The translations under genes and the position numbers were made by a program. From positions 1-30,783 of the IMG/VR virus record IMGVR_UViG_3300044640_000819: DNA of 30,783 bases. The stretch is one strand, 5' to 3'. Source of the DNA: a virus. Of the stretch, positions 994 through 30,747 are shown piece after piece; within the stretch, counting starts at the first letter, position 1; each line of letters begins with the position of its first letter. The notes beneath the pieces are model-generated. The model saw only the letters and a list, made by a program, of their open reading frames with translations. It did no database searches and was not told where the DNA came from.

Positions 994-1039
994 AGCTCCC
1001 CCGCGCGGGAAGCCGGTCGGCGACTGGTGCAACGACCGG

Positions 1040-1072
1040 AGAGGGTCGGGTGCGCGAAAGGCCCGGCCCTCT
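1040..1072 (-). terminator. Hairpin at the 3' end of the minus-strand regulator operon
   Basis: AGAGGGTCGGG (1040-1050) pairs with CCCGGCCCTCT (1062-1072) over 11 positions with one G-U pair and an 11-base loop. It starts at the TAG stop of the minus-strand regulator (1071-1073), the place for an operon terminator. On the minus strand no T-tract follows, so it may instead protect the 3' end. Confidence 0.4.
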
Positions 1073-1301
1073 ACTGCGGCACACCACCCGGCGGCAGGCT
1101 ACCGGCAAGCAGCATTTCGACGGCTAGTGAAACCGGGCCGCTGATTTTGGTCTTTCCGCGCTCATAATCGCGGATGGACTCCCCAGGGTCCCGGCCGCCA
1201 AGGCGCAGGACCCGACCCATCTCGGAGGCCTTAAGCGGTCGCCCAAGGCCCCACATAAGGCCAAGGGTGCGGCGGGCGTTGTAGAGGTCAACTGGGGTCA
1301 A
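1071..1301 (-). CDS. XRE-like DNA-binding regulator, 76 aa
   Basis: This is a probable repressor or antirepressor of the Cro/XRE helix-turn-helix type. The N-terminal helix (DLYNARRTLGL) and the later GESIRDYERGKTKISGP resemble the recognition helix and following turn of XRE proteins (S-I-R-x-[WY]-E-R-G). The central part (LGRPLKASEMGRVLRLGG) would form helices 1-2. An ATG at 1394 would extend the frame, but a TTG at 1299-1301 is preferred: it has GGAG (1311-1314) nine bases upstream and gives the usual size of such regulators. The start overlaps the upstream gene by 14 bases. It is the last gene of a three-gene minus-strand operon whose promoter contains a palindrome, so autoregulation is likely. 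No experimental analogue was recognised. Confidence 0.7.
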   Translation of the reverse strand: MTPVDLYNARRTLGLMWGLGRPLKASEMGRVLRLGGRDPGESIRDYERGKTKISGPVSLAVEMLLAGSLPPGGVPQ

Positions 1302-1467
1302 GTTCGCGTTCTCCAGCTTCGATGGCCTCGCTGACAATGCGAAGCCAGGTCCGATACGGCGGCCAAACGTCGCCCAGCGCGCCTGATGGCCCAAGGCTCT
1401 GAATGTTGCCTTGGGTCGTTTTCAGGGCCTCCAGCATAAGCCGGAGGGCGTTAGGGGCGCCCTTCAC
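1288..1467 (-). CDS. Small hypothetical protein, 59 aa
   Basis: The GTG start at 1465-1467 follows AGGGGG, and the gene overlaps its upstream neighbour by GTGA and the downstream regulator by 14 bases. The product begins MKGAPNALRLMLEALKTTQG and ends GERELDPS. It looks like a soluble, mostly helical protein with a central turn (GPSGALGDVWPP). It is shorter than usual gene-finding thresholds, but the overlaps on both sides and the ribosome-binding site support it. The family is not recognised. Its place between another tiny gene and a DNA-binding regulator suggests a regulatory accessory protein. That is inference. Confidence 0.6.
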   Translation of the reverse strand: MKGAPNALRLMLEALKTTQGNIQSLGPSGALGDVWPPYRTWLRIVSEAIEAGERELDPS

Positions 1468-1613
1468 GCTTGCCCCCTGAGTTCGTCGTAGAGGTCGGAA
1501 ACCATCTGGTCGATCAGATCGGCCCCAAGAACGGCCCGGCAGGCTTCCATGGCGGACATGCCCTCGGCGATCTTGGAGAGGATAGCGGCGCTGATTGCTT
1601 GGGTCTTGGTCAT
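1464..1613 (-). CDS. Small hypothetical protein, 49 aa
   Basis: The ATG at 1611-1613 is preceded by GAGGA seven bases upstream on the minus strand. The protein starts MTKTQAISAAILSKIAEGMS and continues with an E-A-C-R-A-V-L-G helix and the end SDLYDELRGQA. It is compact and all-helical, with no membrane segment. It is first in the three-gene operon and ends in a GTGA overlap with the next gene. The helical pattern I-L-x-K-I-A-x-G-M-x-x-x-E-A could be a small DNA- or protein-binding fold, but no family is assigned. Confidence 0.6.
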   Translation of the reverse strand: MTKTQAISAAILSKIAEGMSAMEACRAVLGADLIDQMVSDLYDELRGQA

Positions 1614-1659
1614 TTGTCTGTCCTCGTCAGGTGGGGCGTCGCCCCGTGTTGATGTCTAG

Positions 1660-1687
1660 ATAATACGGATATTATCCGGCCCGGCAA
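1660..1687 (-). promoter_or_regulatory. Predicted promoter of the minus-strand regulator operon
   Basis: On the minus strand TTGCCG (1687-1682) and TATTAT (1665-1660) are separated by 16 bases. This fits a sigma-70 promoter about 45 bases upstream of the 49-residue gene. The spacer contains the palindrome at 1666-1678, so a bound repressor would block the promoter. Confidence 0.5.
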
Positions 1688-1709
1688 CACCTAATGCGGA
1701 TTAATTCCG
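1666..1709. promoter_or_regulatory. Pair of related palindromes, candidate operators
   Basis: CGGATATTATCCG (1666-1678) is a perfect 13-base palindrome around a central T. It lies inside a second inverted repeat, GATAATA-CGGA-TATTATC (1659-1676). CGGATTAATTCCG (1697-1709) has the same outline, CGGAT-N4-TCCG. The centres are 31 bp apart, about three helical turns, which would place two dimers on one DNA face. They sit between the divergent regulator operon and the terminase genes and are natural targets for the XRE-like protein. The protein-DNA link is inference. Confidence 0.55.
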
Positions 1710-1852
1710 TAAAAAGTTCGCGTCCACTACGGACAAACCCCTTCGGCCCCGTCATCGCGACACCCTACGCAAACCCCGCAGGCGAATGCACGCGGGCCGA
1801 TCCCTCACGCATCGACGCCAGGAGGCCGCGAGGTCTGGCGAGAGAGGCGACC
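1710..1852 (+). other. Leader upstream of terminase small subunit; no separate gene seen
   Basis: The frame of the terminase small subunit is open back to an ATG at 1694, but those codons read as an unlikely basic leader and lack a ribosome-binding site. A loose inverted repeat lies at CGCGGGCC (1791-1798) and GGCCGCG (1824-1830). The stretch could hold the late promoter, an untranslated leader or the packaging recognition site. None can be confirmed by eye. Confidence 0.35.
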
Positions 1853-2165: not shown

Positions 2166-3449
2166 ATGCAAATCCCGGCCAAACTGGTGCCGGTGTTCAT
2201 TGGCCCAGCAGACGTTCGGGGGGCATACGGCGGACGGGGTTCTGCGAAGTCGCGGACGTTTGCTAAGATGACCGCTGCCCGCGCCGTGATGTGGGCTAGG
2301 GCAGGCGAAAGCGGGATTATCCTGTGCGGTCGCCAGTTTATGAACTCGCTGGCCGACTCCTCAATGGAGGAGGTCAAACACGCCATCAACGAAGAGCCTT
2401 GGCTGAAGCCGCACTTTGAGATCGGCGAAAAATACATCCGGACGACCTGCGGGCGCATCGACTACGCCTTCACCGGGCTGGATCGGAACATCGACTCCGT
2501 GAAGTCGAAGAGCCGCATTCGGATTGCATGGATTGATGAGGCCGAGCCAGACACCGAAGAAGGTTGGACCAAGCTGGACCCGACGCTTCGGGAGGAGGAT
2601 TCTGAACTCTGGGTGACATGGAACCCGGAGGGCAAGAACAGCGCAACGCATCGGCGCTTTCGAATGAGCCAAGACCCTCTGGTCAAGGTCATCGAGATGA
2701 ACTGGCGGGACAATCCTTGGTTCCCGGACATTCTGAACCGGAAGCGGTTGAGGGACATGGCAGAGCGCCCGGATCAGTATGACCACATCTGGGAAGGCGG
2801 CTTCAAAGAGATCACAGACGGAGCCTACTTCGCCAGCGCGCTGACGCAGGCCAAGGCGGAGGGCAGGATCGGGAACGTGGCGGCCGACCCGCTTATGACG
2901 TTCCGCGCGTTCTGGGATATCGGCGGGACGGGAGCCAAGGCTGACGCCTGCAGCATCTGGATTGCCCAGTTTATCGGGCGCGAGGTTCGGGTGCTGGACT
3001 ACTACGAGGCGCAGGGCCAGCCGCTGGCCACGCATGTGAATTGGCTGAGGGCCAACGGATACGGTTCGGCCTTGTGTGTGCTTCCCCATGACGGCGCGCA
3101 GTCGGACAAGGTGTTTAGCGTCAGCTACGAAAGCGCTCTGCGGGATGCGGGGTTCTCGGTTGAGGTTGTTCCGAACCAAGGCCGGGGAGCGGCTGCGGAG
3201 CGGATTGAGGCGGTTCGGCGGCTCATGCCTTCGGTCTGGTTCAGCGCTGAGAAGACGGCGCACGGTCGGGACGCTCTTGGCCACTACCACGAGAAGCGGG
3301 ACGAGAAGCGCGGGATCGGGCTGGGGCCAGAGCATGACTGGTCATCGCACGGCGCGGACGCCTTCGGGTTGATGGCTGTATCGTATCAAGCGCCAGTGGT
3401 GGCGAAACGGCCAAGGCCGGTGGCAGCAGCGGGAGGCTGGATGGGATGA
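2166..3449 (+). CDS. terL: Terminase large subunit (ATPase-nuclease), 427 aa
   Basis: This is the motor that pumps DNA into the procapsid and cuts it. The Walker A motif is GGRGSAKSRT (residues 22-31, K28) and Walker B is RIRIAWIDEAE (117-127, D124 and E125). The coupling motif WVTWNP is at 149-154, followed by NWRDNPWF (179-186), typical of the PBSX-like terminase group. The C-terminal RNase H-like nuclease shows FWDIGG (D251), PHDG in the middle, and HGADAFG (D398) near the end. The length is normal for the family. ATG 2166 follows the small subunit by seven bases, and the stop overlaps the portal start as ATGA. All key residues are present, so it should be functional. Confidence 0.95.
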   Translation: MQIPAKLVPVFIGPADVRGAYGGRGSAKSRTFAKMTAARAVMWARAGESGIILCGRQFMNSLADSSMEEVKHAINEEPWLKPHFEIGEKYIRTTCGRIDYAFTGLDRNIDSVKSKSRIRIAWIDEAEPDTEEGWTKLDPTLREEDSELWVTWNPEGKNSATHRRFRMSQDPLVKVIEMNWRDNPWFPDILNRKRLRDMAERPDQYDHIWEGGFKEITDGAYFASALTQAKAEGRIGNVAADPLMTFRAFWDIGGTGAKADACSIWIAQFIGREVRVLDYYEAQGQPLATHVNWLRANGYGSALCVLPHDGAQSDKVFSVSYESALRDAGFSVEVVPNQGRGAAAERIEAVRRLMPSVWFSAEKTAHGRDALGHYHEKRDEKRGIGLGPEHDWSSHGADAFGLMAVSYQAPVVAKRPRPVAAAGGWMG

Positions 3450-28102: not shown

Positions 28103-28503
28103 GCGTCCAGTTTCCTGATTGTCCCGTCAAACCGGCGGGAATGGGTGAAGCCGCGCGACTTGAGGCGCGACGGTTTCGGCCCCTCCGTCTCGCGGCGGAT
28201 GATGCGTTCGGCCTTGGCGATGGCTTTCACGTCGCCCCGCGTCTTGGCCTTGTGGCAGTCGACGCAGATCGGGACCCAGTTCCCCGGATCGTGCCGGCCG
28301 CCGAGGGCCAGGGGGATAACGTGGTCGATGTGCCATGCGCCTGTCAGGGCCGTTTCGCAGGCGCTACAGGCCCCGCCGAAGTCCTCGGCCACCTTCCTGC
28401 GCTGCGATGGCGTAAAGCCCCTGCGCGGCGTTTTCTCGGGCCGGATTTGGCCGATGGCCTCGCGCAGGCGGGCGAGGGTGGCGCGTTTGTCGGCGGGGGT
28501 CAT
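28099..28503 (-). CDS. HNH endonuclease, 134 aa
   Basis: The catalytic core is WHIDHVIPLALGGRHDPGNW (about residues 57-76; D60-H61, N75), followed by CVDCHKAKT (80-88). Cysteines C46/C49 and C80/C83 should bind a structural zinc. It probably nicks or cuts DNA. In many phages such an enzyme works with the terminase, in others it is a homing or defence nuclease. Here it sits in the early operon. ATG 28503 overlaps the methylase stop as ATGA. A C-terminal basic tail (RRFDGTIRKLDA) may contact DNA. Confidence 0.88.
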   Translation of the reverse strand: MTPADKRATLARLREAIGQIRPEKTPRRGFTPSQRRKVAEDFGGACSACETALTGAWHIDHVIPLALGGRHDPGNWVPICVDCHKAKTRGDVKAIAKAERIIRRETEGPKPSRLKSRGFTHSRRFDGTIRKLDA

Positions 28504-29117
28504 GCGGCTTTCTCCAGGGCGTATCCGCCCCACTGGTCGGCCATGGCCTCGGCGATCCCGGGAAAGAACCGGGAGCGTTCCTTCCAGCGGTCGGCGCGCT
28601 CGGGCATCCGATGGACCCTCTGTTCCCGGCCCTCGACGATCCGCGTGGGCGTGAGCGGCGGGAGGTTCCGCAGCCAGAGACAGGTGCGCTTGCACTCGCC
28701 GTGCCCAAACTGCCAGGGCTGCACGGACTGGGCCGGCTCGCGGTAGTTGACGATCAGCGCCTTCGCGTGGCGGTGCATCACCGGGTTCTCGATGGCCACG
28801 CGCTCAATGGGCGCGTTCCAGAAGGCCGAAAACAGGTCGGCCCCGGCCTCCAATTCGGCCTGCATCTGGTCGGCGGTCTTGCCCGGCGGCGGCGTCGAGA
28901 GCCAGCGGACCCCGGAATTGCAGAGCCGGGTGCAGGGCGGGTGCGCGACCATCAACAGGTCCCAGCCGTCGTTCAGGATGTCGCGGGCGTCGCCGATGAT
29001 GTGGCGGTTCGACCCGTCCTCGGAGGGCAGCAGGTCGCACGACCAGGCGTCGTGACCCCGGTCTAGGAAGGCGTTGCGGACGGTCCCGCTGTATTCGCAG
29101 GCGACGAGAACTTTCAC
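28500..29117 (-). CDS. Small C5 cytosine methylase-like protein, 205 aa
   Basis: The start VLVACEYSGTVRNAFLDRGH (motif I region) is followed by HPPC (59-62), the catalytic P-P-C of cytosine-5 methylases, and IENP (109-112), where canonical enzymes have E-N-V. It would transfer a methyl group from SAM to cytosine. At 205 residues it is shorter than usual enzymes, and no clear motif VIII or target-recognition domain was seen, so specificity is uncertain. GTG 29117 has GGAG seven bases upstream. No cognate restriction nuclease is adjacent, so a protective or regulatory role is likely. Confidence 0.7.
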   Translation of the reverse strand: MKVLVACEYSGTVRNAFLDRGHDAWSCDLLPSEDGSNRHIIGDARDILNDGWDLLMVAHPPCTRLCNSGVRWLSTPPPGKTADQMQAELEAGADLFSAFWNAPIERVAIENPVMHRHAKALIVNYREPAQSVQPWQFGHGECKRTCLWLRNLPPLTPTRIVEGREQRVHRMPERADRWKERSRFFPGIAEAMADQWGGYALEKAA

Positions 29118-29129
29118 AGCATTGCTCCG

Positions 29130-29204
29130 TTAGCGTTGAATGCCCAACCCTACCGACTTCCCGCGCGCGATGGGCGGCGGCAAAATGTCGCAGGCGGCGC
29201 TCAC
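29130..29204 (-). CDS. Possible 24-codon cistron
   Basis: A GTG at 29202-29204 overlaps the winged-helix gene's stop (GTGA) and opens VSAACDILPPPIARGKSVGL plus a few residues. It ends 12 bases before the methylase start, keeping the chain of overlapped genes nearly unbroken. The sequence itself is not informative, and it may only be a spacer. Confidence 0.3.
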   Translation of the reverse strand: MSAACDILPPPIARGKSVGLGIQR

Positions 29205-29461
29205 TCCACTTCCTCCCCATCGTCCAGCCTCATGCGCGCATCCCACCCATCCGGCGTGATTTGCACCATATCGCCGTCACGATCCTGGATGATTCGGACA
29301 TAGCCCTTCTCCTCCAGATGCCGCAGGGTCCGGTGGCCGGTGTGCCAACCTGTCCGCGTGTCTGACTTGGCGAGAATCCTCCGGGCCTCATGGCCGGCAA
29401 GATCACCGTCTGACAGCGCGTCGAGAAGGCGGTGCGCGCGACCGTTGACGCTGTAGGTCAT
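29201..29461 (-). CDS. Winged-helix-like DNA-binding protein, 86 aa
   Basis: The order of helices (AHRLLDALSDGDLAGHEARR, then TGHRTLRHLEEKGYVRII) followed by a hairpin (DRDGDMVQITPDGW) matches a winged helix-turn-helix (L-x-x-L-x-x-x-G-Y-V). It may regulate phage early genes. ATG 29461 overlaps the NinB stop by one base (TAATG). It lacks a recognised effector domain. Confidence 0.65.
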   Translation of the reverse strand: MTYSVNGRAHRLLDALSDGDLAGHEARRILAKSDTRTGWHTGHRTLRHLEEKGYVRIIQDRDGDMVQITPDGWDARMRLDDGEEVE

Positions 29462-29853
29462 TAGGCAGCCTCCTCGCCGCCGAACGTCACACCCTCGCGG
29501 GCTCCAAACGCTTCGATCAGCGCCATCAGGTCGGACATTTCATCCACCGACAGGGCCGATGATGAGCGGCCAAGCTGGACAAAGCCGTTGCCGTCGAGGT
29601 TCGGCACCATGCGCAATTCAGCCTTCAGCGCGGACAGAAACACCACCTTCCAGTCGTCTGGAGAGAGCTTCTGCCCGTGCCATTTCACCTGCCGGGCCAC
29701 ATCGGTAAGCATTGCCCACATGCGTTCGTTTTGAGGCAGGGTCCGCTTGGGGCCAGCGAACGTGACGCGGGTTCCCCACGCAGCCTGATCGATCCACGCG
29801 CGGGCGCGGGCCTTCTCGATCTGGGAGTGAAGGACGATAACGGCGCGGGACAT
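29461..29853 (-). CDS. ninB: NinB-like recombination protein, 130 aa
   Basis: The pattern TLPQNERMWAMLTDVARQV (residues 38-56) followed by KWHGQKLSPDDWKVVF is typical of NinB/Orf-family recombination mediators, which bind single-stranded DNA and help load a recombinase. The length is right. It lies next to the ERF annealing protein, which fits. The start overlaps the ERF stop as TAATG. Confidence 0.85.
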   Translation of the reverse strand: MSRAVIVLHSQIEKARARAWIDQAAWGTRVTFAGPKRTLPQNERMWAMLTDVARQVKWHGQKLSPDDWKVVFLSALKAELRMVPNLDGNGFVQLGRSSSALSVDEMSDLMALIEAFGAREGVTFGGEEAA

Positions 29854-30512
29854 TAGTCACCCGCCTCGTCGTCGAAAAGCTCCTGACGCCGCAGCTCCAG
29901 CTTGTCGCGGTAGGGGTCGAGCCATGACAGCGGCTGATCCGCCGTAAGGTCGTCGAAGTTGGCGAGCCAGTCGGCCAGGCCTTCCTTGGAAAGCCGGTTG
30001 ATCTCGCCAATGATCCGCTCGTGATCCCCGTCGCGTTTGGCTTGGGCTGACGACTTGCGGCCCCCGCTGGGCATTTCAGGCGGAGCGACGGGGGCGGGAC
30101 GCTGGGCGCGAGGCGCAGCCGCCGTCGCGGCGTTGCCGTCATCATCCTCCGGCGCAACCCCGACGAAAGCGGCGAGGGCATATCGCCGAGCGTAGGTGGT
30201 CGCGGACCCGTAAGCCTGGGCATCCACCTTGGCCAGCGGGATCGTCAGCGTCCCGCGCATCCACTCCCCGGAAGCATGGGCCAGCATGGTCGTCATTTCC
30301 ATCCGCCCATCGGCGCAGGGACCGGGGGACTGGACGACCGCGAGGCCGTGCTTGGTGAGGGCTTCCCGGCAGGCATCCCACACGGCGGCGAGGTCGGCGT
30401 ATTTGGAGCGGAAGGCGGGGTTTGCCTTGCCCTTTACAGCGCCTTCAACCTCGCCCTGTGCGGCTGACAGAGCCTTGGCGAGCGAGGCGATGGTGGGGGA
30501 GGTGTCAAACAT
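29853..30512 (-). CDS. erf: ERF-family single-strand annealing protein, 219 aa
   Basis: Residues 31-44 (NPAFRSKYADLAAV) and 101-127 (YGSATTYARRYALAAFVGV, APEDDDGN) are the conserved N-terminal motifs of P22 Erf-type recombinases. The alanine/proline linker (about 128-150) and a charged C-terminal domain follow. It should anneal single strands and support recombination or genome circularisation. ATG 30512 lies eight bases inside the end of the upstream gene. Confidence 0.9.
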   Translation of the reverse strand: MFDTSPTIASLAKALSAAQGEVEGAVKGKANPAFRSKYADLAAVWDACREALTKHGLAVVQSPGPCADGRMEMTTMLAHASGEWMRGTLTIPLAKVDAQAYGSATTYARRYALAAFVGVAPEDDDGNAATAAAPRAQRPAPVAPPEMPSGGRKSSAQAKRDGDHERIIGEINRLSKEGLADWLANFDDLTADQPLSWLDPYRDKLELRRQELFDDEAGD

Positions 30513-30747
30513 CGGTCAGAATCTCCGAAATGGCGTTCAGCTTGATTTTCAGTTGTTCCGCGCTGTCCCAATCCTTGTCGGCAATGGCGCAGTAAAGTTT
30601 TGAGGTCAGAACCTGAAACCGCTCTTCGAGGTTCTGGTTCACATGAGCAGCGGCCTGCATCTCTCGCACCATGTCCGGGGGAGACAGCGGCACATCGCCC
30701 TCCGCTAGAACAGGTCGAAGGCGATAGCGCTCGGTGCGGTTACGCAT
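30505..30747 (-). CDS. Hypothetical protein, 80 aa
   Basis: ATG 30747 has AGGAG upstream (minus strand). The product MRNRTERYRLRPVLAEGDVP is basic at the start and then helical (NQNLEERFQVLTSKLYCAIA, DKDWDSAEQLKIKLNAIS). The helical part faintly recalls a UVR-type helical hairpin. No function is assigned. Its end overlaps ERF by eight bases, so it probably belongs to the same recombination operon. Confidence 0.6.
   Translation of the reverse strand: MRNRTERYRLRPVLAEGDVPLSPPDMVREMQAAAHVNQNLEERFQVLTSKLYCAIADKDWDSAEQLKIKLNAISEILTDV

Follow-up and report, generated by a model that had tools for sequence, protein, structure and literature searches.

A putative self-repressed accessory operon with an Aca-like layout and exchangeable cargo beside phage packaging genes

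In the acr-aca loci, as PMC9410906 outlines them, an HTH gene follows the acr genes, the core promoter contains an inverted repeat, and early, strong transcription is then repressed by the HTH product at that repeat. Aca1 and Aca2 each occur with many Acrs (PMC9410906), and, according to the AcaFinder report (PMC9765179), one aca is often found recombined with various acr genes. The C proteins of restriction-modification systems, such as C.Csp231I and C.Esp1396I, are likewise small autoregulators with the XRE fold, and in archaeal viruses, on the account given in PMC11065993, many small early genes that are unrelated to one another, anti-defence genes among them, share a conserved regulatory sequence.

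The window analyzed here, i.e. the whole stretch of 30,783 bases that forms one IMG/VR virus record, encodes a Terminase_3 large subunit and a P22-like portal and contains, beside terS and terL, a cassette of three small genes (Table 1) that we consider probably to be a self-contained, transferable and self-repressed accessory operon of Aca-like type. Compared with acr-aca loci (Aca1-Aca10 and similar, as portrayed in PMC9410906 and PMC9765179), the cassette is alike in placing a short HTH gene downstream of small, variable genes of one operon, in the inverted repeat within the core promoter, which is joined by a second repeat in several acr-aca families, and in the recombination of the same regulator with different cargo. 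The regulator, at 76 aa, is below the size of about 150 aa that delimits the short HTH proteins counted as Acas, with modest support for the HTH itself; it is encoded after short genes of the same operon, and an inverted repeat lies within the core promoter of that operon. The cassette differs from acr-aca loci in that no known Acr was matched among its cargo, that the regulator has no match by sequence beyond chance to any PDB chain, that a conserved 5' hairpin leader is common to units with different operators, and that the second repeat stands at 31-33 bp and the unit beside terS/terL. Because no acr partner is shown, we do not file the regulator as an Aca; the comparison with Aca sequences covered those presumably present in the PDB, and as no known Acr or Aca sequence was matched, membership of an Acr or Aca family is not claimed. 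The cassette units differ from those of C proteins in having no restriction endonuclease/methylase pair, and from the archaeal viral system, which as described in PMC11065993 belongs to another domain of life and uses another promoter type, in having the operator within the promoter itself and an HTH gene as the last of the unit.

Table 1 Features of the cassette and its surroundings in the window.
Feature	Positions	Strand	Basis or remark
GC-rich hairpin immediately flanking the cassette at the operon's 3' end	1039-1072		possible terminator, no T-run
76-aa XRE-like regulator, last gene of the operon	1071-1301	minus	TTG start
Whole cassette	1072-1738		delimited by the empty sites in L044 and L047, to within a few bases
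G2, 59-aa cargo gene	1288-1467	minus	GTG start
G1, first gene of the operon, 49-aa cargo	1464-1613	minus	ATG start
Shine-Dalgarno-like GAGGA ahead of G1	1621-1625	minus	sequence
5' leader hairpin GGGGC-GAC-GCCCC	1633-1645	minus	only copy in the window
-10 hexamer TATTAT	1660-1665	minus	sequence
O1, perfect palindrome in the -35/-10 spacer	1666-1678		extended site TACGGAn5TCCG 1664-1678
-35 hexamer TTGCCG	1682-1687	minus	TTGACG in several relatives
O2, near-perfect sister palindrome 31 bp upstream of O1	1697-1709		extended site 1697-1711
O3, possible degenerate third site (half-site TGTCCG)	1730-1742		weak; 2 mismatches

The three overlapping minus-strand ORFs of 49, 59 and 76 aa (1071-1613) proposed by the first-pass annotation are all present in the window, as is the promoter TTGCCG-16-TATTAT (1687-1660, minus strand), which scores 9/12. 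O1 (CGGATATTATCCG) is, as had been described, a perfect palindrome that fills the spacer up to the -10 hexamer. O2 (CGGATTAATTCCG) is indeed its sister at a distance of 31 bp; one arm pair is mismatched, so that O2 is near-perfect. The possible third site is located 33 bp past O2, at the edge of the cassette, and occupies the same place in L002, L127 and L129. Taken alone, the 9 perfect 6+1+6 palindromes of the window are not remarkable and the number of CGGAn5TCCG sites (3 observed vs. 1.4 expected) is near chance; the extended motif TACGGAn5TCCG is found in exactly two copies, namely, the O1 and O2 sites. The leader hairpin (GGGGCGACGCCCC) lies between the promoter and G1 and has a predicted folding energy of -11.8 kcal/mol. 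An Rfam scan of positions 1000-1900 found nothing, and the leader and operator DNA had no match in phage and plasmid records.

Homologs of G1, with G2 beside them, accompany the regulator in 10 cassette loci, several of which are near-identical contigs; such small genes are not called with certainty, and the loci are mostly metagenomic contigs, few with known hosts. The predicted structure of G1 consists of three helices and is confident (pLDDT 93.6), with no significant fold match, Foldseek included; a similarity of G1 to an engineered PDB protein (E 1e-7) was taken as chance, with no stretch passing alone. G2 had no match to protein families or to the PDB. Homologs of G1 are also found apart from the regulator, at the head of operons in phages that appear unrelated: G1-like 48-aa proteins (MTKTQAIS...) start operons in L032-L037, around position 3001, and in L036 and L037 are followed by recombination-protein-like and exonuclease-like genes (labels assigned by reading the sequences); the G1-type protein of L036 had no match in phage records. 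At the far end of the window (28500-30747, minus strand), an Erf-like annealing protein, a NinB/Orf-like protein and a DNA methyltransferase are encoded, with small unknown genes adjoining. Since the record ends inside this block, the early control region of the phage is probably missing from it.

The last gene of the operon, described at first pass as XRE-like, exists as a 76-aa ORF, and its identity as an HTH protein is modestly supported by its relatives and by its predicted structure. The protein itself matched no Pfam family. Among 20 relatives, weak profile matches to phrog_14076 (8/20) and HTH_3 (1/20) were obtained, and the AlphaFold model of the regulator comprises four helices (mean pLDDT 76.8); together, these data are suggestive of an HTH protein. 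In structural comparisons, the model came closest to C.Csp231I (Z 5.5, rmsd 3.8, 68 aligned) and, tied with it, P22 c2 (Z 5.3, rmsd 3.1, 58 aligned), a similarity that may reflect only a common arrangement. A Foldseek search with the model yielded no significant match, and comparison by sequence with PDB chains, which presumably include Aca1 (7FA3) and Aca2 (7B5J), gave nothing beyond chance; a PDB profile match to DDX3X (E 0.055 and worse) was likewise taken as chance.

Scans of IMG/VR for relatives of the regulator returned 23 loci with a single sequence and 48 loci with a profile, and three genome contigs, from Proteobacteria, Rhizobium and Phenylobacterium MAGs, also encode relatives; the working set, including the window and L221, comprised 53 loci with 41 distinct regulator proteins. 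Near-identical contigs inflate the raw counts, so the operator-pair and leader tests used distinct proteins, some of which are still close kin. Conservation of the palindromes among relatives, named as a check in the first-pass annotation, holds for the paired sites: CGGAn5TCCG pairs 31-33 bp apart, with at most 2 mismatches in all, are present upstream of the regulator in 12 of the 39 distinct loci with enough upstream DNA, compared to 2 of 800 windows of 1 kb drawn at random from the same loci, and in 12/19 distinct loci whose regulator has E at residue 41. Because the paired sites are thus conserved, we regard the palindrome observation as solid. The fixed-motif test with controls replaced a generic scan for palindrome pairs, which rose barely above shuffles outside the CGGA group. 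The CGGA pair is absent from 27/39 distinct loci; at the same place, many loci without it have another operator, with the spacer being, for example, TTACAGGGAAACCCTG or CTACCGATAATCCTTG, depending on the group. In nearly every relative with a readable promoter, an operator lies inside the regulator's own core promoter, and this arrangement spans relatives with widely differing backbones. The part of the first-pass proposal that concerns self-control is supported by this placement and by the enrichment of the pairs.

Residue 41 of the regulator, which lies within its DPGES segment, varies in parallel with the operator. Glutamate at this position goes with CGGA/TCCG half-sites, and A, Q, T or V with CCTG or CTTG half-sites, in all 27 rows counted (27/27), i.e. 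those for which a promoter was read, with the exclusion of L136 (= L214), where A41 is combined with a mixed operator, TACAGG...TCCG. Because there are only 2 changes on the tree, the link is suggestive only and cannot be significant; a test of independent pairs, with 2 pairs, lacked power. The covariation between residue 41 and the half-site is, to this extent, suggestive of the regulator being the protein that binds the operator.

The leader is conserved as well. A promoter followed by the GGGGCnnnGCCCC hairpin, a ribosome site and ATG was detected within 1.5 kb upstream of the regulator in 28/41 distinct loci (L149, L158 and L163 being cut short in this test), and elsewhere in the same loci in 4 copies per 456,546 bases searched. 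In L127, the hairpin is present and the start codon is farther away; in nine distant members (L157, L160 and L164-L170), the strict test detected no leader. A second, divergent hairpin leader, with its own operator where this was read, is present in L143-L146 and L150, which thus have two divergent promoters upstream with apparently one regulator for both; in L145, L146 and L150, a middle operator lies between the divergent promoters at a spacing of about 31 bp, and L159 has a weaker candidate for a second leader. In L180 (2744-8000), the hairpin leader occurs three times ahead of runs of small unknown genes, and the spacer sequence differs; L024 (3001-3519) encodes two convergent members of the regulator family, 54% and 39% identical to the protein of the window.

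Outside this set, the regulator of the window had no significant match in 50,697 phage records (one at E 0.6), and the related protein of L221 had none in the 50,697 phage or 72,556 plasmid records. Among 299 genomes of the family to which the genome of L124 belongs, a clear member was identified only in the genome of L124 itself (E 2e-35); 20 others gave matches at E 1e-12 to 1e-8, with no hairpin leader in the stretches examined. A literature search, mostly of open-access texts and with the tables of AcaFinder's 36 new families outside its scope, found no prior description of the regulator family or of the leader, and no link to the regulator emerged from passages of PMC10688885, on XRE factors of Caulobacter and phiCbK.

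Between the constant leader and the constant regulator, the genes change. The cargo consists of 49 and 59 aa proteins in the window, 83 and 100 aa in L127, 113 aa in L128, 60 aa in L130, 44, 73 and 56 aa in L132, and 63 aa in L142; in most loci, these ORFs run or overlap into the regulator. In total, 111 predicted cargo ORFs, including repeats from near-identical contigs and one identical stretch pair counted twice (L161/L283), fall into 69 clusters. The regulator proteins of L127 and L128 are 96-97% identical to that of the window; at the DNA level, identity to L127 and L128, respectively, is 90% and 87% in the XRE gene, 85% and 87% in the promoter, and 38% and 54% in the cargo region, that is, unrelated, and the TerL of the same contigs (= L005 and L006) is only 35% and 34% identical to that of the window. 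The suggestion that G1 and G2 are co-regulators or antirepressors is not supported by this comparison, as unrelated genes replace both in L127 and L128 beside a nearly identical regulator; they behave as interchangeable cargo.

We chose 62 cargo proteins by hand from the 111 ORFs and from the per-locus cargo ORFs, dropping repeats and spurious-looking ORFs (e.g. in L164 and L170). These matched two families each in Pfam and NCBIfam and seven in PHROGs, with one protein per family; no known Acr was matched in the three libraries, which probably hold few Acrs. By analogy with acr-aca loci, the most likely role is anti-defence (anti-CRISPR or similar), with about an even chance of being correct. 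A Cas1 match in one of the three MAGs with relatives is neutral on an anti-CRISPR role. A competing possibility, to which we give appreciable but lesser credence, is that the operon is self-repressed and accessory as proposed, with cargo serving host takeover, superinfection exclusion or lysogen fitness: the same evidence on architecture applies, and the scans of the 62 proteins point to no target for any of them, but anti-defence loci, as characterized in PMC9410906, typically combine a constant repressor with high turnover of cargo, an argument that is not decisive.

A toxin-antitoxin-like unit, in which one or more small toxin genes would precede an HTH antitoxin that represses the operon, in the HigBA order, shares with the cassette the toxin-first order and the autorepression, a similarity remarked on for Acas in PMC9410906. 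However, the cargo is highly variable, often with several unrelated genes per unit, while the regulator is nearly constant, and no toxin family was matched among the 62 cargo proteins. An antitoxin must fit its toxin, and the toxin-antitoxin reading does not fit because regulators 96-97% identical are found with unrelated upstream genes (L127, L128); we consider it improbable. As a type II system, it was rejected for want of a constant toxin partner, the cargo differing beside near-identical regulators. A C protein of a restriction-modification system was rejected as well: linked R and M genes were not found, and the only methyltransferase-like match among the 62 cargo proteins was to phrog_757.

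The position of the operators between the cassette and terS, and the proximity of relatives to TerL (2.5 kb or less in 33/34 loci with a TerL found, out of 53 examined), would fit the first-pass idea that the XRE protein controls, besides itself, the packaging (late) genes through these palindromes. Four observations make this very unlikely. First, L044, whose TerL, TerS and portal are 98%, 95% and 97% identical to those of the window, has no regulator, G1, G2, hairpin or operators; L047 (TerL 81%) is also without regulator, G1, G2 and hairpin. In both, window position 1071 is joined within a few bases to 1737-1741, which delimits the cassette at about 1072-1738, with the regulator stop codon at one end and the edge of the third site at the other. 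Because the cassette is cleanly absent from a near-identical phage (L044), it is not a needed controller of packaging, and the operators are not conserved with the packaging genes. Second, the orientation relative to TerL varies: of the 34 loci with TerL in reach, near-identical contigs being counted, 16 have the cassette and TerL on opposite strands and 18 have both on one strand. Third, no plus-strand promoter scoring above 7/12 was detected between 1640 and terS. Fourth, in L111, a GIY-YIG-like gene, so labelled by reading its sequence, intervenes between the cassette and the packaging genes. A cI/cro-like lysogeny switch of a temperate phage, with evenly spaced operators as in lambda OR, is scarcely credible, two to three evenly spaced operators and the divergent hairpin-bearing second promoters of L143-L146 and L150 notwithstanding, in view of a unit that is dispensable in a near-identical phage, is located at the packaging genes, regulates swappable cargo and has no visible CI-like partner.

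At exactly the same junction, L050 (1225-3596) carries a different insert, with a transposase-like gene (311 aa), a GIY-YIG-like gene and one other gene. Inverted repeats form its termini, and there may be an 8-bp duplication, CCCTCACA; both the repeats and the identification as a transposase come from reading the sequence. The cassette junction is, therefore, a repeated insertion site.

From the architecture, the conservation of operators, leader and regulator, the swapping of cargo and the empty site, all read directly from sequence, we infer how the Aca-like, self-repressed operon might work. A strong promoter of sigma-70 type would fire at once on infection, with the mRNA starting a few bases ahead of a stable 5' hairpin and a good ribosome site; the hairpin could act on the stability of the mRNA or on its translation. 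A burst of small cargo proteins, G1 and G2 in the window, would follow. The small HTH protein encoded by the last gene would accumulate and, probably as a dimer, bind O1 in the -35/-10 spacer, with O2, about three helical turns upstream, assisting, and the bound protein would shut the promoter. The cargo would be exchanged by recombination between the promoter and the regulator gene, both of them conserved, and the whole unit would come and go at a site beside the packaging genes. Aca2 binds RNA as well as DNA.

The leader also extends beyond this regulator family. In L194, the same leader has another operator, GCACTCAGTGC, in the spacer, and the last gene encodes an HTH_31/HTH_3 protein above curated cut-offs. 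We tentatively raise the possibility, which we regard as rather doubtful, that a promoter-embedded operator with a 5' GGGGCnnnGCCCC hairpin is a general expression frame for anti-defence genes in many phages (probably alphaproteobacterial), used by different HTH families, each with its own operators.

The tempting reading of the locus is thereby corrected, in that an operator beside terS need not mean control of late genes. This corner of phage biology appears unexplored, as the regulator had no significant match in phage records and the L221 protein none in phage or plasmid records. Homology searches do not easily find anti-defence genes, which are small and evolve fast. Because its layout matches that of known anti-CRISPR operons, the cassette may be a lead to new anti-defence genes, and a constant regulator and a constant promoter-leader around changing cargo are a practical bait for such genes; if the general frame were true, it could be used in this way to catalogue unknown anti-defence genes in large numbers.
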